Shown here piece by piece: positions 13,370 to 26,555 of a stretch of 29,771 nt of DNA (the first letter of the stretch is position 1; each line of letters starts with the position of its first letter). The stretch is from a virus. Made by a program: the position numbers and the translations under genes. The notes below the pieces were generated by a model, which saw only the letters and a program-made list of their open reading frames with translations, did no database searches and had not been told where the DNA came from. Location: positions 1 to 29,771 of the IMG/VR virus record IMGVR_UViG_3300044991_000089; one strand, written 5' to 3'.

Positions 13370-14034
13370 CAACCATTAACGCCGTTACAGGCTCGCAAAT
13401 TAACCATGCGGAATTTGTAAAATTAACTGTTGGCGTTGCCGGTACTGTTTACACATTTTGCAATGCCGCCGCCCCAATTACTGTGGGTGGCAATACGTTT
13501 TCAAACCTTGGCGCACTTTTAAACGTTGGCGATGTTCAACGCGATATTAAAGCCACATCAGACGACATGACGATTGCTCTGACGGGAATTTTGCCTGCAA
13601 ACATTGCGGTCATTTTGTCGGGCGACATCAAGGGTTCACTGGTCGAAGTGTGGCGTGGTTTCTTTGATTCCAACAATCAAATTATTACAACGCCAACAAC
13701 CCAGTTTTTTAAACGCTACCAAGGTATTATTAACAGCGTAGCAATTACCGAAGATTTCAATACAGAGATGCGCACACGGGTGGCAACTTGTTCCATATCG
13801 TGTTCGTCAATGCGACGCATTTTGGAAAACAGATTGTCAGGCGTGCGAACAAACAAAAGTAATTGGCAATTTATTTACGGCGTAAATGAAACGTCAATGA
13901 ACCGCGTTTCGGAAATATCAAATACTTATTTTGATTTTGGCAAACCACCGATGACGCAAACACAATCAAGTGAAACAACCGTAACCATGGATGGCGGCGG
14001 GGATAGCGGTGGGGATGGTGGTGGGGATGGTTAA
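13366..14034 (+). CDS. Tail tip protein, DUF2163-like / GTA gp13-like position, Gly-Asp tail
   Basis: A 222-residue protein, second after the tape measure. It is beta-rich in the N-terminal half (FVKLTVGVAGTVYTFCNAAAPITVGGNTFSN; DMTIALTGILPAN) in the manner of hub proteins that insert into the tail tip. Later it has RRILENRLSGVRTNKSNWQ followed by TSMNRVSEISNTYFDFGKP, a pattern found in other phage tip proteins at this position. The C-terminus is a run of Gly and Asp (about 15 residues) encoded by a GGTGGGGAT-type repeat. It overlaps the previous gene by ATGA. I assign role by position, with moderate confidence. Confidence 0.62.
   Translation: MTTINAVTGSQINHAEFVKLTVGVAGTVYTFCNAAAPITVGGNTFSNLGALLNVGDVQRDIKATSDDMTIALTGILPANIAVILSGDIKGSLVEVWRGFFDSNNQIITTPTTQFFKRYQGIINSVAITEDFNTEMRTRVATCSISCSSMRRILENRLSGVRTNKSNWQFIYGVNETSMNRVSEISNTYFDFGKPPMTQTQSSETTVTMDGGGDSGGDGGGDG
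13988..14031 (+). repeat. Short GC-rich tandem repeat coding for a Gly-Asp tail
   Basis: The DNA here is built from imperfect 9-base units of the type GGTGGGGAT, giving a C-terminal stretch of Gly with Asp every third or fourth residue. It is the most G-rich stretch nearby and would be prone to slippage in copy number. An acidic, flexible end could bind metal ions or act as a linker; neither is shown. Confidence 0.7.
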
Positions 14035-14037
14035 AAA

Positions 14038-14484
14038 ATGATAAGACACGCAACAAAATATGACATACCAAGATTGCTTGAAATTGTGGAAGCCTATGCT
14101 TATGAAAACCCTATTAAAAAACTTGGTGATTCTTGTAACCATTTTCCTCGGTATGTTGAGCAACTTTTGTTTGAAATTATTAGCGGTCGTGGTTTTATTT
14201 ACATCGATTCCAATTTACGCGGTGCAATTGTTGCTTATAAAACTGCAAACATTTGGTCGCCCAAAATAAAAGAATTAAACGAATTGCTTTGGTGGGTTGA
14301 ACCCGAGCATAGAAATGGGACAGTTGGTGGTAGATTGTGGAAAGCGTTTGATGAACGTGCGCAAGCGATGTTAAAAGCGGGCGATGTGGATTTTGTTTGC
14401 ACATCAATCTCGGCACAAGGTCCTTTGATTGATTACACGCGACGAGGGTATAAACCACTTGGCGCAACTTTCGTTAGGGAATAA
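14038..14484 (+). CDS. GNAT-family N-acetyltransferase in the tail operon
   Basis: A 148-residue GNAT fold protein. It opens MIRHATKYDIPRLLEIVEAY (the beta1-alpha1 pattern I.R.A...D...L), has the motif A strand and acetyl-CoA loop LLWWVEPEHRNGTVGGRLWKAF at about 83-104 (the R-N-G-x-x-G-G loop corresponds to Q/R-x-x-G-x-G/A), and ends in TRRGYKPLGATFVRE, the usual ..GF..... of motif B. It is preceded by GGTTAAAAA and followed after 2 bases by the J-like tip gene. The substrate is unknown: a tail or host protein amine, or a small molecule. In related tails this gene slot often holds an NlpC/P60 peptidase. Confidence 0.85.
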   Translation: MIRHATKYDIPRLLEIVEAYAYENPIKKLGDSCNHFPRYVEQLLFEIISGRGFIYIDSNLRGAIVAYKTANIWSPKIKELNELLWWVEPEHRNGTVGGRLWKAFDERAQAMLKAGDVDFVCTSISAQGPLIDYTRRGYKPLGATFVRE

Positions 14485-18737: not shown

Positions 18738-21700
18738 ATGGCTATACAAAAAGTTGTCGTTGTTGACGGAAACAACCTTATTGTTCGTATTGACCGCGGT
18801 GTCGCGGGTCGTAGCGTAACGGATGTTGATATTGTCGAAAGTAGTGGTTCAATATATCTTGTATTTACGTTTTCTGATGGCACAACGGAAACAGTAGGAC
18901 CCGTTGGAACGATTGCGTATGTAGGACAGTCACCGATTGTTGTTAACGCTTCCACAATTAGTTTGTCAACAGTTCCCGTTAACTTAGGCGGTACAGGGCA
19001 AGTTACAGCCAATGCAGGGTTTAACGCCCTAGCCCCATCGCAAACCGGCAATACAGGCAAGTACCTTAAAACCGATGGCACTACGACCGCTTGGGATTTG
19101 CTCGACATTTCTACCGCTGACATCACCGGCACGCTACCCATTGTTAACGGCGGCACGGGTCAAACTACTGCCAACACCGGTTTAAATGCTTTGTTGCCAG
19201 TGCAAACAGGGCAAGCAAATAAGTATTTGCAAACCGATGGCACTAATACATCTTGGGATGCAATCAGTTTGTCAACTGCGGACATAACTGGCGTATTGCC
19301 CGTTGTCAATGGCGGTACGGGTGTTACCACTTCAACCGGTACAGGCTCAACAGTTTTATCAACATCGCCCACGTTAGTAACCCCTGCATTGGGTACGCCC
19401 TCTAGCGGCGTTTTAACCAACGCTACGGGCTTGCCAATTGCCACGGGTGTAAGCGGTTTAGGTGCGGGCGTTTCTACGTTCTTAACAACCCCTAGTTCTG
19501 CTAACTTAGCGGCTACGGTTACAGACGAAACAGGCACAGGCGCATTAGTTTTTGCAACTAGCCCTACTTTGGTTACGCCAATCTTAGGTACGCCCACTTC
19601 AGGAACGCTTACAAACGCAACAGGCTTGCCCGTAAGCACCGGAATTAGCGGGTTGGGTACTGGTGTAGCAACTTTTCTTGAAACGCCTACAAGCGCCAAT
19701 TTAGCCGCTACTGTTACCGATGAAACCGGTACGGGTGCGTTGGTATTTGCGACAAGCCCCACGTTAGTTACGCCCGCTTTGGGTACGCCCGCATCAGGCG
19801 TTATGACCAACGTCACAGGAACAGCCGCCGGACTTACCGCGGGCAACGTCACCACTAATGCCAACCTAACCGGCATGGTGACATCTATAGGCAATGCAAC
19901 CACGGTTGTAACAAACGCCAATTTAACTGGCGGCGTTACATCGGTCGGCAATGCTACAACCGTTGTGACCAATGCTAACTTGACAGGCGCGGTAACGTCC
20001 CTTGGCAATGCGACATCGCTTGGCAGTTTCACATCGGCAGACCTTGCCACGGCATTGACGGATGAAACCGGCACAGGCTCGGCAGTTTTTGCCAATTCAC
20101 CAACGCTTGTTACACCGGCACTTGGCACGCCATCGGCTTTGGTCGGTACAAACATTACGGGTACGGCATCGGGTTTGACTGCCGGCAATGTTACGACAAA
20201 CGCCAATTTAACTGGCATGGTCACATCGGTTGGTAACGCAACAACCGTTGTTACAAACGCCAATTTAACGGGTGATGTAACTTCTATTGGCAATGCGACT
20301 ACGTTGGCTACTGTTGCCACGGCAGGGGTTACGGGGTCTAGCACAGCCATTCCCGTAGTGACTATTAACGCCAAGGGATTAACAACTAGCATTACGACAG
20401 CCGCGGTCATCGCACCTGCAGGAACTTTAACTGGCTCAACATTGGCATCGGGTGTTACGGGTTCGTCATTGACAAGCCTTGGCACAATTGGCAATTTGTC
20501 AGTTACGGCAGGAACGATTGCGACAACGCCATCAGCCGCTACGGATATTGCCAATAAAGATTACGTTGATACTGTTGCGCAAGGTCTTGACCCTAAAGCC
20601 TCATGCGTTGCCGCCACAACTATTGACATTACGTTGTCAGCACCGCAAACCATTGACGGAATTGCTTTAATTGCGGGCGACCGATGTTTGGTAAAAAATC
20701 AAACAGCACAAGCAGACAACGGCATTTATGTTGTAGCCGCTGGCGCATGGACACGTTCAAGCGACATGAACGCTTGGGCAGAAGTATCAGGCGCGTTTAC
20801 CTTTATTGAGCAAGGCACGACACAAGCCGACACCGGATGGGTTTGCACATCCAATGCGGGCGGTACGTTAGGCACTACGCCAATTACGTTTGTTCAATTT
20901 GCGGGCGTTGGTTCTTACACTGCGGGTACAGGGCTAACTTTAACCGGCACACAATTTAGCCTTACAACGCCCGTTACCGTGGCTTTGGGCGGCACTAACT
21001 CAACAAGCGCGGGCATAGGCTCATTTAACAATATCACGGGTTATACGGCATCCGGCGCGACAGGCACAACGTCAACCAACTTAGTGTTTAGTACATCGCC
21101 AACTTTAGTTACGCCTATTCTTGGTACGCCGCAATCGGCAACGCTGACCAACGCAACCGATTTGCCAATTAGTACAGGCGTTAGCGGCTTGGGTACAGGC
21201 GTTGCGACATTCCTAGCCACGCCATCAAGTGTTAATTTACTTGCCGCTGTTACAGATGAAACTGGTACGGGTTCTTTGGTATTCGCTAACTCGCCTACTT
21301 TAGTTACCCCTGCATTAGGAACACCGTCTGCGTTGGTTGGCACAAACATTACAGGCACAGCGGCAAACTTTAATATTAATGGAACTGTTGGCGCAACTAC
21401 GCCATCAACAGTTACAGGCACAACAATAACGGCAAGCACAAGTTTTGTTGGAACTAATTTTGATGCCGCTGGTTCTGGCGGTGGTGCTTTAAGAAATAAC
21501 ACGGGTGCAAATTGCTTGCAATGGGGCGCGGGCGGTGGTGTTAACTTGACGCTTGATGGCGCATTTAACATGAACCCCGCTAATGCAACTATTTCTATTG
21601 CACCAACAGGCACAGGCACTTTAACAATAAACCCTGCTACCGCGGGAACAATTAACAACATGGCTATTGGCGGTACAACGCCTAGGGCGGGTGCATTTAC

Positions 21701-23897
21701 TACTTTAACCGCATCTACCGCAATTGGCATTGCATCGGGCGGTACAGGGCAAACATCGGCTAATGCGGCGTTTAATGCTTTAGCACCAAGCCAAACAGGT
21801 AATAGCGGCAAGTATCTAACAACCGATGGTACGGATACATCTTGGGCATCAAACCCATTGGGTACAGTAACTAGCGTTGCGGCAAGTGTTCCATCATTCT
21901 TGTCTATTGCGGGTTCACCTATTACGACAAGCGGCACATTGGCAATTAGTTTGTCGGGTACTGCATTGCCTACAACATCAGGCGGTACGGGGCTTACATC
22001 GTTTACCGCTAATGGCGTTGCGTATGCAAGTTCATCAAGTGCATTGGCTACTGGCTCTGCGCTTACTTTTGATGGGACTAATCTGTCGTTGATTGGTGTT
22101 TCTACAAGTCCTATTATTGCAAATATCCAAAATACAAACACTAATACTAGTGCTGGTGGAAGGTATCAATTTAGTTATGGTGGAATTGCGGTTGGTTGGA
22201 TTGCAAATCAGTTTGATGGTGCTGATTTTGATAACAAATACGTTGCCTCAAAGCATCATATTTTTTATACAGGCAATACATCACCAACAGAAGCCCTGCG
22301 CCTCACATCCTCAAGCCTTTATACGGCTAGTGGAATCAATGTTGCTATTGGTGCAAATTCGGCAGGTAGTAAATTAGATGTTGTCAGGTCAGCGACAACT
22401 ACTACTGCTTTTGATGAACCAGTAATGCGGGCAATCAATAATGGTACTGCTACGCTGAACCAACGTGTTGACATTGCATTGCGTTTTCAAGATGGAACTT
22501 ATAACGGCATTGGTGGAATTTCAATGCTTAGAGAATCTGCTACTGCCCGTAGTGGTGCATTGGTATTTTCTCCAATAGCAAGCGATGGTAATGCTTTAGC
22601 CGCAATGCGCCTCGACAGCGCAGGCAATCTAGGCTTGCGAGTTACTCCGAGTGCTTGGAGTGGATTTACTGCGCTTCAAGTAACTTCTGGTTTTGCGGCA
22701 TGGTCATCTGGTGTGGCAAATGCTCGTATTAACGCCAACACTTACTACAATGCTGGTTATAGGTACATTGGCACTGGCACTGCAACTATGTACGAGCAAG
22801 ACGGCTATCACGCTTGGTATACTGCCGCATCTGGTTTAGCAGGAGACCTTATCACTTGGACTCAGACGATGACTCTAAATGCAAGTGGGCAACTGCTTTT
22901 AGGTGCTACTACTGGTTCAGGATTTAAGACGCGGATTCAAGATGATAGTTTGCAAGTTAGATTACAAGCGTCAACAAACACCAATCAAGGTTTAACGCTT
23001 GGATATACTTATTCAGGCGGTTACGGGCAAATCAATTGTGATGAGGCGGGAGTAAACCAAAAAGATTTATGGTACACCGCACTTACCCATCAGTTTGGAA
23101 GAAACACATCATCGTCTTATGTAACGATAGATGCTAGTGGGAATATGGGTGTTTCTGCGGGTATGTTATTTGTTAGCAGACCAACTGGTAATACACAATT
23201 CACTTCAGGTATCGGCATAAATGCAAGTAACACTACGGGTGAAGGCATTGAGTTTCTAACTACTGCATCAACAGGCACTAGGCTGTTGGCTTACGACAGA
23301 AATGTGGCGGCATTTAGAAGGCTTGACCTAGCAGGAAATGAAATCCATCTTAGCCCAAACAATTCTACTAGCGTTATTGTTAATGGCTTTGGTCTTGGTG
23401 TTGGTGCATCAACACCATCATCAGGCACAGGTATCACATTCCCCGCAACTCAATCAGCATCATCAAACGCTAATACGCTAGATGATTATGAGGAGGGGAG
23501 TTGGACACCTGAATTAGTTGGTAGCGGGACTACTGGAACACCTGTAGCAGGCTTAGGTTATTACACTAAAGTTGGAAATCTAGTAACCATTTTTTATGCA
23601 TTTGAAGGTGTTGCTTCACCTTCTGGTGCAACAGATATTCTATTTATTAGAAATATGCCATTTCAATTAAATTTAGCGAGTAGTGCTTACAATTATGGTA
23701 ATCCCGGTCTTATTTACACAAATGGTGGAACATCACTTCCAAATATGTGGTTTGGGCATAGGATAAATGACGCTACTGGCTTACAGTTTTATTTTACATA
23801 CTATGCTAATGTAAATACTGCTCCGTCCAATTTTCTTGTTTCAAATTTGGGCGGTTCTGGTAATTATCTTCGTGGATATTTTTCATATCAATTTTAA
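18738..23897 (+). CDS. Large repetitive tail fibre / receptor-binding protein
   Basis: A 1719-residue fibre. Residues 1-70 are a compact N-terminal attachment domain (VVVVDGNNLIVRIDRG...TFSDGTTETVGPVG). Residues about 75-600 and 780-930 are Thr/Gly/Ala-rich repeats: NGGTGQTTAN...NKYLQTDGT...W units, SPTLVTPALGTPSSG...LTNATGLP units of 65 residues, and TNANLTGMVTSIGNATTVV units of 19 residues. Near 607-735 is a separate domain with ADNGIYVVAAGAWTRSSDMN and ADTGWVCTSN, a module common in phage fibres. From about 1120 the sequence changes to non-repeated, more Asn/Tyr-rich beta structure. The end (about 1580-1719) opens DDYEEGSWTPEL, a frequent C-terminal fibre domain. No S74 chaperone seen. Confidence 0.92.
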   Translation: MAIQKVVVVDGNNLIVRIDRGVAGRSVTDVDIVESSGSIYLVFTFSDGTTETVGPVGTIAYVGQSPIVVNASTISLSTVPVNLGGTGQVTANAGFNALAPSQTGNTGKYLKTDGTTTAWDLLDISTADITGTLPIVNGGTGQTTANTGLNALLPVQTGQANKYLQTDGTNTSWDAISLSTADITGVLPVVNGGTGVTTSTGTGSTVLSTSPTLVTPALGTPSSGVLTNATGLPIATGVSGLGAGVSTFLTTPSSANLAATVTDETGTGALVFATSPTLVTPILGTPTSGTLTNATGLPVSTGISGLGTGVATFLETPTSANLAATVTDETGTGALVFATSPTLVTPALGTPASGVMTNVTGTAAGLTAGNVTTNANLTGMVTSIGNATTVVTNANLTGGVTSVGNATTVVTNANLTGAVTSLGNATSLGSFTSADLATALTDETGTGSAVFANSPTLVTPALGTPSALVGTNITGTASGLTAGNVTTNANLTGMVTSVGNATTVVTNANLTGDVTSIGNATTLATVATAGVTGSSTAIPVVTINAKGLTTSITTAAVIAPAGTLTGSTLASGVTGSSLTSLGTIGNLSVTAGTIATTPSAATDIANKDYVDTVAQGLDPKASCVAATTIDITLSAPQTIDGIALIAGDRCLVKNQTAQADNGIYVVAAGAWTRSSDMNAWAEVSGAFTFIEQGTTQADTGWVCTSNAGGTLGTTPITFVQFAGVGSYTAGTGLTLTGTQFSLTTPVTVALGGTNSTSAGIGSFNNITGYTASGATGTTSTNLVFSTSPTLVTPILGTPQSATLTNATDLPISTGVSGLGTGVATFLATPSSVNLLAAVTDETGTGSLVFANSPTLVTPALGTPSALVGTNITGTAANFNINGTVGATTPSTVTGTTITASTSFVGTNFDAAGSGGGALRNNTGANCLQWGAGGGVNLTLDGAFNMNPANATISIAPTGTGTLTINPATAGTINNMAIGGTTPRAGAFTTLTASTAIGIASGGTGQTSANAAFNALAPSQTGNSGKYLTTDGTDTSWASNPLGTVTSVAASVPSFLSIAGSPITTSGTLAISLSGTALPTTSGGTGLTSFTANGVAYASSSSALATGSALTFDGTNLSLIGVSTSPIIANIQNTNTNTSAGGRYQFSYGGIAVGWIANQFDGADFDNKYVASKHHIFYTGNTSPTEALRLTSSSLYTASGINVAIGANSAGSKLDVVRSATTTTAFDEPVMRAINNGTATLNQRVDIALRFQDGTYNGIGGISMLRESATARSGALVFSPIASDGNALAAMRLDSAGNLGLRVTPSAWSGFTALQVTSGFAAWSSGVANARINANTYYNAGYRYIGTGTATMYEQDGYHAWYTAASGLAGDLITWTQTMTLNASGQLLLGATTGSGFKTRIQDDSLQVRLQASTNTNQGLTLGYTYSGGYGQINCDEAGVNQKDLWYTALTHQFGRNTSSSYVTIDASGNMGVSAGMLFVSRPTGNTQFTSGIGINASNTTGEGIEFLTTASTGTRLLAYDRNVAAFRRLDLAGNEIHLSPNNSTSVIVNGFGLGVGASTPSSGTGITFPATQSASSNANTLDDYEEGSWTPELVGSGTTGTPVAGLGYYTKVGNLVTIFYAFEGVASPSGATDILFIRNMPFQLNLASSAYNYGNPGLIYTNGGTSLPNMWFGHRINDATGLQFYFTYYANVNTAPSNFLVSNLGGSGNYLRGYFSYQF
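19365..21485 (+). repeat. 65-residue and 19-residue repeats in the fibre gene
   Basis: Six copies of SPTLVTP(A/I)LGTP begin at 19365, 19560, 19755, 20097, 21096 and 21291. Three of the intervals are exactly 195 bases (65 codons). A second unit, TNANLTGxVTSxGNAT, starts at 19854, 19911 and 19968, then again at 20196 and 20253, always 57 bases (19 codons) apart. The protein repeats are much better conserved than the DNA, since many third codon positions differ. The repeats also create long open frames on the minus strand that are not genes. Confidence 0.88.
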
Positions 23898-25481: not shown

Positions 25482-25787
25482 ATGCAAAACACCAAAGACA
25501 AATTGGTTTACACAGTGACAATTTGCGTAACCCTGACCCTGTGTTTCTCCGTGTTAAGCATGGTGGTCGCCTTTATGTTGGGGCTATGGGCAAAAGAGGT
25601 GGACAATGCGGAAATTTTCAAAATGATTTCACCAGCGTTCAGCACCCTAATTGGCGGGATGATTGGGTTCCTGAGTGGTATCAAACTGAACCAAGACGAT
25701 TCTGAGAAACCAAAGGAGAACAAAGATGATGGGATTAGATGCACTCTTGCAAGTGGGCGGGAAACTAATAGACAAACTGATACCTGA
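25482..25787 (+). CDS. Small two-TM membrane protein, holin-like
   Basis: A 101-residue frame with hydrophobic segments at about 8-36 (LVYTVTICVTLTLCFSVLSMVVAFMLGLW) and 48-65 (ISPAFSTLIGGMIGFLSGIKL), then a polar tail. Two membrane spans with a short turn are typical of class II holins or pinholins. It starts 18 bases after the previous stop without a clear ribosome site, and its last 62 bases overlap the 3TM-type holin in another frame. Another frame (25460-25705) overlaps it and is probably spurious. Confidence 0.7.
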   Translation: MQNTKDKLVYTVTICVTLTLCFSVLSMVVAFMLGLWAKEVDNAEIFKMISPAFSTLIGGMIGFLSGIKLNQDDSEKPKENKDDGIRCTLASGRETNRQTDT

Positions 25788-26133
25788 CCCCGAGGCTAAA
25801 GCCAAAGCGCAGTTTGAACTGCAAAAAATGGTACAAGACGGTGAGTTGGCTCGCATGGCTAACGAAACCAAACTGTTTGAAGTTGAGCAAGAAAACGTCA
25901 CCAGACGCGTTGAAGCGGATATGGCTAGTGACAGTTGGCTGTCCAAAAATATACGCCCTATGACGCTTATATTCCTATTGGTTGCCTATTCCGGCTTTGC
26001 TACCGCCTCAATTTTTGATTTTGAAACCCGTGGCGCATACGTTGAGTTGCTTGGGCAATGGGGTATGTTGGTTATGTCGTTTTACTTTGGAGGCAGAACG
26101 ATGGAAAAAATTGCAGACAGGGTTAAAAAATGA
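25726..26133 (+). CDS. Holin, 3TMs family (DUF3154)
   Basis: A 135-residue protein fitting the phage holin 3TMs family. It starts MMGLDALLQVGGKLIDKLIPDPEAKAKAQFELQKM, the family's opening (GG.lid.lipDp.akA.a..el..l), continues with a long helix (VEQENVTRRVEADMASDSWLSKNIRP), and has hydrophobic segments at about 82-101 (MTLIFLLVAYSGFATASIF) and about 107-125 (ELLGQWGMLVMSFYFGGRTM). The holin forms membrane holes that release the endolysin. AAAGGAG precedes the start, and the stop overlaps the endolysin start by ATGA. Confidence 0.9.
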   Translation: MMGLDALLQVGGKLIDKLIPDPEAKAKAQFELQKMVQDGELARMANETKLFEVEQENVTRRVEADMASDSWLSKNIRPMTLIFLLVAYSGFATASIFDFETRGAYVELLGQWGMLVMSFYFGGRTMEKIADRVKK

Positions 26134-26555
26134 CACCACATTTTACGCTTGCGGAATTAACGCACACCGACCACCGCGAACTGGAGAACATTCCAAATGA
26201 AACCGAACTGGCAAACATTCAAAGATTGGCTGAATTCCTTGAAAACCTCAAGACCCTACTTGGCGGTAAGCCAATTATGGTTAACAGTGCTTTCCGCAGT
26301 AAAGCGGTTAACGACGCGGTAGGCAGTAAAGACACGTCACAGCATCGCATAGGTTGTGCGGCTGATTTGCGCGTGCCTAGCATGACCCCTGACGCGGTGG
26401 TGCGTGCCATTATTGCATCCGATTTGCCGTATGACCAAGTGATTCGGGAATTTGACCGATGGACACACGTCAGTATTCCAAATGAACCCGCCCGCGCACC
26501 GCGTAAACAAGCGTTAATCATTGACAAACAAGGAACTAGATTGTTTGTTGCTTAA
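26130..26555 (+). CDS. Endolysin, M15-type zinc peptidase
   Basis: A 141-residue peptidase M15 (VanY-like) domain that would cut peptidoglycan cross-links or stem peptides. Visible motifs: VNSAFRS at about 51-57 (substrate-binding S.YRS), QHRIGCAADLR at 71-81 with zinc ligands His72 and Asp79, and DRWTHVSIP at 109-117 with the third zinc ligand His113 and an acidic Glu107 nearby. There is no signal peptide, so release would depend on the holin. Length is normal for single-domain M15 endolysins. It is the last gene on the plus strand; its 3' end overlaps the convergent nuclease gene. Confidence 0.93.
   Translation: MTPHFTLAELTHTDHRELENIPNETELANIQRLAEFLENLKTLLGGKPIMVNSAFRSKAVNDAVGSKDTSQHRIGCAADLRVPSMTPDAVVRAIIASDLPYDQVIREFDRWTHVSIPNEPARAPRKQALIIDKQGTRLFVA

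Follow-up and report, generated by a model that had tools for sequence, protein, structure and literature searches.

Among the closest described systems, the tail tips of RcGTA and of roseophage R4C carry a small NlpC/P60 peptidase (g14 and 015, respectively) at the same place, which in R4C lies between the hub and the megatron/J protein. According to the parts of the RcGTA study used here, particles lacking g14 are empty heads without tails, g14 degrades peptidoglycan, and the tail channel contains an unassigned density sized like one g14 monomer, which the authors cannot assign with certainty (PMC7296036). The corresponding parts of the R4C study place the peptidase beside the end of the tape measure (PMC10276861). 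Both models, as presented in these parts, infer that the slot peptidase occupies the tail channel close to the C-terminus of the tape measure and departs during entry (PMC7296036, PMC10276861).

GNATs of virion modules have been discussed for the cobaviruses: in the part of the article used here, the cobavirus GNAT pc40 is likened to its proposed counterpart T7 gp13, for which a role in virion morphogenesis has been suggested (PMC6775973). T7 gp13 (PF11090, PHROG 308) is small, adjoins the tail and internal virion genes and is described in Pfam as a probable scaffold protein. A literature search of titles and abstract openings, covering few subscription journals, returned no GNAT or HlyC enzyme described in the tail-tip slot, i.e., the position between hub and J.

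The slot gene and its operon

The DNA analysed here (the window) is a virus record of 29,771 bases with terminase, portal, capsid, tape measure and tail module (Table 1). A preliminary description of the window had reported a GNAT acetyltransferase in the tail-tip operon, at the place where a peptidase is usual, and both the gene and its place are borne out. The open reading frame starts with ATG 3 nt past the stop of the hub gene and ends 2 nt ahead of the start of J. It is uninterrupted in 81/81 sequences (the window and 80 close relatives, which are the best 80 of 221 viral-contig relatives of the window GNAT, with best segments at least 86% identical), and the median pairwise dN/dS across 64 distinct sequences is 0.080. 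A chance or artefactual open reading frame is ruled out by this openness together with the strong purifying selection.

Table 1. Positions of the tail-tip genes, slot-protein residues and lysis genes in the window, and of HlyC-type slot genes in three other phages.
Feature	Position	Strand	Basis
Tape measure protein, 669 aa	10767..12776	+	PF09718 E 1e-12
gp12-position tail protein, 216 aa	12719..13369	+	position and similarity to P19250A and L267 counterparts
Hub-like protein (GTA gp13 / DUF2163 position), 222 aa	13366..14034	+	PF09931 E 8.5e-5 (sub-cut-off), PHROG 2048
GNAT-fold tail-tip slot protein, 148 aa	14038..14484	+	PHROG 1249, predicted fold, GNAT- and J-seeded loci
Glu82 codon, start of fourth strand; candidate general base	14281..14283	+	kept in window and P19250A clades
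GNAT motif A / CoA pyrophosphate loop, residues 92-100 RNGTVGGRL	14311..14337	+	alignment; in the model, between strand 78-87 and helix 95-113
J / megatron-like tail-tip protein, 1227 aa	14487..18170	+	PF13550 E 1.9e-4 (sub-cut-off)
GTA-type holin	25726..26133	+	context
M15 peptidase endolysin	26130..26555	+	context, adjoins GTA-type holin
HlyC-type acyltransferase before J, HTVC111P	L087:4534-4941		PF02794 E 2.1e-12
HlyC-type acyltransferase before J, HTVC026P	L091:3429-3842		
HlyC-type acyltransferase before J, HTVC112P	L265:3004-3390		

By Pfam, the identity of the protein is weak, with 15.3 bits for PF00583 (E 0.025; gathering cut-off 20.7) and 15.2 bits for PF13508 (cut-off 27), and a search of NCBIfam returned no match. 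It is clear from PHROG 1249 'acetyltransferase', which matches residues 1-110 with E 2.3e-9, and from the predicted fold: at E <=0.001 the AlphaFold model (pLDDT 84.8, pTM 0.81) had 187 matches in the PDB, of which the ones listed are GNAT enzymes, with 3mgd as the best (Z 14.4, rmsd 3.0, 134 residues aligned). Based on this profile and the model, the slot protein is a small single-domain protein of predicted GNAT fold. No substrate class could be named from the structural matches, as the scores of 50 PDB rows, which include polyamine, aminoglycoside, ribosomal-alanine and Nat enzymes, span no more than 2 Z units.

PHROG 1249 also matches the slot proteins of Kolga (E 7e-12), DSL-LC06 and contig L267 and, weakly, that of Methylophilaceae phage P19250A (1.1e-4). 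It likewise matches the GNAT of the cobavirus Lentibacter phage ICBM2 (E 6e-27), which is 25.6% identical to the window protein; ICBM2 is a podophage without a hub-J tip, and its gene belongs to the virion module, where it is flanked by a tail gene and the gene of internal virion protein B. A distant relative in Nostoc phage NMeng1 (29.5% identity, E 3e-5) lies between RNA polymerase and collar genes, not at the tail tip. The slot protein matched neither the NlpC/P60 profiles (TIGR02219, PF00877) nor the T7 gp13 profiles (PF11090, PHROG 308), which detected R4C 015 and T7 gp13 themselves, nor the HlyC profile PF02794, and profile comparison of the GNAT and HlyC slot proteins likewise detected no sequence relation.

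The operon order of tape measure, gp12-like, gp13-like, GNAT and J-like genes given in the preliminary description was confirmed, with the gp12 and gp13 labels resting on order and weak matches. The hub matches a PHROG 2048 tail protein (E 7e-20) and has no PF09356, the C-terminal domain present in the R4C hub; the gp12-position protein has no Pfam match, and hhalign comparisons of the hub and gp12-like sets with R4C were not significant. The N-terminal part of J is 39% identical over 514 residues to the 'host specificity protein J' of P19250A. By the domains of the GTA operon, R4C has PF09931, PF13550, PF09356 and PF13547, the last being the TIM barrel of its megatron, whereas in the window the first two were found below cut-off and the last two were absent, the window J giving no TIM-barrel match. 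The equivalence to the GTA slot thus rests on gene order and weak profile matches, and we regard the operon as arranged like a GTA tip ('works like') and do not file it as a member.

At the corresponding position between hub and J, R4C holds the peptidase 015, which matches PF00877 and TIGR02219. The occupants are similar in size (window GNAT 148 aa, R4C 015 203 aa, and RcGTA g14 150 aa in the part of the source used) and unrelated in fold and chemistry, and the window protein has no peptidase family match. The absence of an NlpC/P60 domain nearby, also noted in the preliminary description, extends to all records compared: PF00877 was found in 0/22 (the window and 21 related records) vs 10/14 control genomes. 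This model also fails to detect the NlpC-like DUF6950 genes in CRP-831 and CRP-6, and divergent forms could escape it in the same way.

Elsewhere in the window, the M15 endolysin is the sole peptidoglycan hydrolase among the 30 open reading frames scanned, a set that excludes a 1719-aa fibre-like protein. This fibre-like protein (window 18738-23897) is highly repetitive and Ser/Thr/Gly-rich, with several near-copies of a motif around TSPTLVTPALGTP. The M15_3 endolysin model matches just 6/17 related records, some of which may be fragments, and relatives may have exchanged one lysis enzyme for another. The C-terminal end of the hub is rich in Gly and Asp (window 13975-14031), and a DNA-level search of phage records with the hub region gave no match.

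Position of the GNAT and other occupants of the slot

The gene order of the window recurs in the lake phage P19250A, an isolate, whose gene 0018, annotated as hypothetical, is a direct homologue in the same slot. Among the loci seeded with GNATs of the window clade (best 80 of 221), J lies directly downstream in 80/80, and hub and J flank the GNAT in 78/80, the hub side of the other two being off the contig; in the P19250A clade, both neighbours flank the gene in 31/33 loci, and two are cut on one side by contig ends. Loci seeded with a GNAT or an HlyC-type gene have their slot type by construction, and only J-seeded sets test it freely. Such sets were made from the J proteins of the window, Kolga and CRP-831, the P19250A and HlyC groups being seeded by slot gene only. 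With the window J as seed (best 80 of 553 loci, reaching down to 70% identity to the reference set), a GNAT stands upstream of J in 77/77 classed loci, three of the 80 having too little upstream DNA to be classed. This result, which bears out the same gene order in related phages, strengthens the fixed position of the GNAT; many contigs are common to the 113 GNAT-seeded and the 77 J-seeded loci, the classing used reference sets partly drawn from the same loci, and the E-values of the locus scans apply to candidate stretches only.

A profile of the slot family, which detects close relatives only, found exactly one copy, at the slot, in 17/17 records (12 of the window clade and 5 of the P19250A clade), where the IMG/VR records behind the counts may be fragments. 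A GNAT scattered elsewhere while a peptidase sits in the slot, named beforehand as the pattern that would speak against the preliminary description, was not seen in these 17 records. A second, sub-threshold PF00583 match away from the slot occurs in a 375-aa open reading frame of the records behind L013 and L017 (G001:9043-9282, G002:707-970).

Different proteins occupy the same position in other phages. Across the 104 loci seeded with the J proteins of pelagiphage Kolga (24/24 relatives kept) and roseophage CRP-831 (best 80 of 88), of which 11 lacked 400 bases of upstream sequence and were left unclassed, a GNAT precedes J in 20/20 classed Kolga loci and a DUF6950 protein in 73/73 classed CRP-831 loci. 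The DUF6950 protein looks NlpC-like because R4C 015 matches the NlpC/P60 model and also that of DUF6950, the latter below cut-off; a profile comparison of the DUF6950 set with R4C 015 covered just 25 columns around the Cys (probability 10). The slot proteins of the CRP-831 group (L158-L237) have this Cys in 24/24 aligned sequences and no conserved His downstream, in an alignment to R4C that is uncertain in the half after the Cys. Judging from these residues, they may be catalytically incomplete and inactive as peptidases.

A third type of occupant is an HlyC-like (RTX toxin) acyltransferase (PF02794), found in the slot of HTVC111P, HTVC026P and HTVC112P. The slot position was confirmed by both neighbours in 28/32 HlyC-seeded loci; three were cut by contig ends, and one had no recognisable neighbours. 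The HlyC-type set matches ApxC 4whn (E 2.2e-4), a member of the HlyC family whose fold we take to be GNAT-like; the profiles of the window-P19250A, Kolga and DUF6950 sets gave nothing under E 0.1 against PDB sequences. The region expected to contain the catalytic His of ApxC/HlyC, ahead of the part that can be aligned to ApxC, has no invariant His in the phage set. Members of the HlyC-type family also occur off the slot, in HTVC103P, where the gene lies close to early and replication genes, and in HTVC115P.

HTVC202P, unlike its closest relatives, has no annotated gene between hub and J (L092:3219-3785), and a search for HlyC-type genes at E up to 0.01 returned nothing for it. It is nested among the HlyC-slot phages on the J tree; with no slot gene between hub and J, it indicates that at least one lineage can do without a slot protein.

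On the J tree, the window, P19250A and Kolga GNAT-slot phages form one group (100/99.9; 93/82 with L123 included), the DUF6950-slot phages form a separate group (100/100), and the HlyC-slot phages carry a J group different from that of the GNAT-slot phages. Of 226 J sequences, 55 and later 54 rows selected at 80% identity entered the tree, L123 being left out because its J matched no reference and had a branch of 7.4. The slot type tracks the J lineage, with six labels and five changes, the minimum possible, on a tree that carries a warning of long branches meeting and that was sampled by seed and thus shows clustering, not rates. DSL-LC06 has a clear slot GNAT (PF00583 2.2e-9), and the grouping of its J with the J proteins of other GNAT-slot phages received an AU p of 0.07; it remains a single case because viral-contig scans seeded with its GNAT and its J gave nothing usable.

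The CoA loop and its probable loss in sister clades

The consensus of GNAT motif A is Q/R-x-x-G-x-G/A. In the window protein, the loop R92-N-G-T95-V-G97 retains the Arg and the second Gly, and the first Gly of the consensus is replaced by Thr. Across the close relatives, R92, N93, T95, G97, G98, R99 and L100 are found in 81/81 sequences, G94 in 79/81 and V96 in 72/81, and the wider J-seeded set keeps the pattern R-[N/D/G]-G-[T/S]-[V/I/L]-G-G-R-L in 77/77. The GNATs of ICBM2, which has an R-N-G loop like that of the window, and of NMeng1 likewise have no Gly at the position of the first consensus Gly. The 'intact acetyl-CoA loop' of the preliminary description therefore needs qualification: it is strongly conserved in the window clade, and the first consensus Gly is absent (Thr95).

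The P19250A clade, including gene 0018 of the isolate, lacks four residues relative to the window, where strand 4 ends and in the loop; this deletion removes the CoA loop, whereas the gene, its predicted fold and its position are all kept. PF00583 detects the slot gene in 12/12 window-clade records (all below cut-off) vs 0/5 records of the P19250A clade. For the loop-less protein of L125, a member of this clade, a GNAT fold is predicted (pLDDT 83.9; Z 13.7 to 1qsm) from an alignment that included three window-clade rows, which possibly helped the prediction. In the Kolga clade, whose slot proteins are homologous to those of the window family by hhalign (probability 95.6, E 1.2e-8), the loop has no Gly in 13/13 aligned sequences. 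Glu82, the candidate general base, is kept even in the P19250A clade, where the loop is lost.

The J protein of L267 groups with the P19250A side (99/99), yet its GNAT keeps an intact-looking loop, RNTTIG. The deletion is most simply derived because L267 retains the loop on the P19250A side, and loop loss would then be the derived state in the P19250A clade; this direction follows from parsimony only, as the counts on the tree cannot separate gain from loss. The loop-less L156 possibly branches ahead of L267 (support 89/74), and given this placement the deletion may have happened twice. L267 itself, a contig of 38.9 kb, was binned with an archaeal Nitrosotalea MAG; its tail operon is of the P19250A type, and the contig probably belongs to a bacteriophage and was misbinned.

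Substitution rates point the same way as the loop. Median dN/dS values of the window clade are 0.080 (slot gene), 0.094 (hub) and 0.111 (J N-terminus), against 0.275, 0.160 and 0.256, respectively, for the P19250A clade. The slot gene thus lies above the hub where the loop is absent and below it where the loop is present, in a descriptive comparison of medians with overlapping 5-95% ranges and non-independent pairs.

Role of the slot protein

The reading we prefer, to which we give slightly less than an even chance, is that the GNAT scaffold of the slot protein serves in tail-tip assembly or as a part of the lumen. A small GNAT-fold protein made together with the hub and J/megatron would serve the building of the tail tip, most likely by binding to the tip or within it, in between J and the C-terminus of the tape measure, and it would either stay there as a small internal protein or act as an assembly chaperone. 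By analogy, such a role would parallel the part seemingly played by the peptidase g14 in RcGTA, and the proposed correspondence of cobavirus pc40 to T7 gp13 is a second precedent. Judging from its loop, the protein of the window clade probably still binds acetyl-CoA, and a partner may be acetylated; the conserved job of the slot would nevertheless be assembly or occupancy, not acetyl transfer, because the sisters keep a loop-less protein and other lineages use different proteins.

The interpretation offered in the preliminary description is supported in part. Occupancy of the slot, the fixed place and the single copy all stand, whereas the idea that the protein matters chiefly as an enzyme does not fit the sister clade, in which the slot still holds the gene, with the same predicted fold, after loss of the CoA loop. 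Among the readings it proposed, replacement of a lost function comes closest, if this is taken to mean the assembly function of the slot protein.

Several observations count against the assembly reading. The tight loop conservation and the lowest dN/dS in the window clade fit a working enzyme, as does the retention of Glu82 in loop-less proteins. The slot protein of RcGTA is itself an enzyme, given the peptidoglycan degradation by g14 reported in the part of that study used here, and the gap in HTVC202P argues against strict essentiality of any slot protein. Nor was sequence similarity detected between the slot GNATs and T7 gp13.

The main rival, which we judge unlikely while taking it seriously, is a working acetyl- or acyltransferase that modifies a tail-tip protein (J or a neighbour such as the hub or tape measure) at assembly, the loop-less lineages using another acyl donor or having lost the activity. 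The invariance of R92, G97, G98, R99 and L100 in the close relatives and in the J-seeded loci, and the lowest median dN/dS among the three genes of the window clade, are what such an enzyme would leave behind. The HlyC family acylates RTX toxins ahead of their membrane insertion, and the HlyC-type genes in the same slot, with their match to ApxC, count in favour of this rival. The loop, however, was lost in the P19250A clade and is degenerate in the Kolga clade while the gene was retained, the phage HlyC-like set has no invariant His upstream of the ApxC-alignable stretch, and no modified tail protein is known.

Improbable in our estimate is a protein carried in the tip and ejected first, which acts on the host envelope or cytoplasm, e.g., by acetylating cell-wall sugars, LPS or a host protein, in place of peptidoglycan cleavage. 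Such a route would resemble that inferred for the slot peptidases of RcGTA and R4C in the parts of those studies cited above, and no tail-tip hydrolase was found among the 30 window open reading frames scanned, the 1719-aa fibre not being one of them; there is, however, no sign of virion packaging, and the loss of the CoA loop in the sisters argues against an entry enzyme that is needed. A moron, present in the tail operon by happenstance and serving as an accessory gene to tune host metabolism, as suggested for the GNATs of roseophages CRP-4 and CRP-5 in the part of the publication used (PMC6918029) and as the NMeng1 relative away from the tail tip might indicate, is very improbable, given the one copy per record, the one place in the GNAT-seeded and J-seeded loci as far as the contigs reach, the tight operon spacing and the one supported group formed by the J proteins of the GNAT-slot phages (DSL-LC06 apart); the scattered presence or position that it predicts among close relatives was not seen in the window and P19250A clades.

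Beyond the GNAT itself, we tentatively propose, as a possibility we hold with some doubt, that the slot before J is fold-agnostic. At least two unrelated enzyme folds (the NlpC/P60-like DUF6950 protein and the GNAT), together with the HlyC-type protein, would have been recruited as the same small tail-lumen or tip-assembly part, and in the P19250A GNAT, the Kolga GNAT and the CRP DUF6950 protein the catalytic site would have decayed in a gene that kept its place. The 'tail peptidase' of GTA-like tips would then be an assembly part first and an enzyme second.

The slot gene of GTA-like tips is taken to encode a tail enzyme that cuts the cell wall, yet RcGTA without it, in the part of the study used here, fails to form tails. 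A GNAT in this slot, together with its loop-less sisters, separates the assembly role from enzymatic activity, and the question of assembly versus enzyme becomes testable in phages that have an isolate, such as P19250A. The finding also argues against a metabolic-auxiliary reading of virion-module GNATs of the kind suggested for CRP-4 and CRP-5. If the HlyC-type occupants prove active, acylation at the tail tip would be a new idea for membrane entry. The slot position may need a small tail-building protein more than it needs one particular enzyme.
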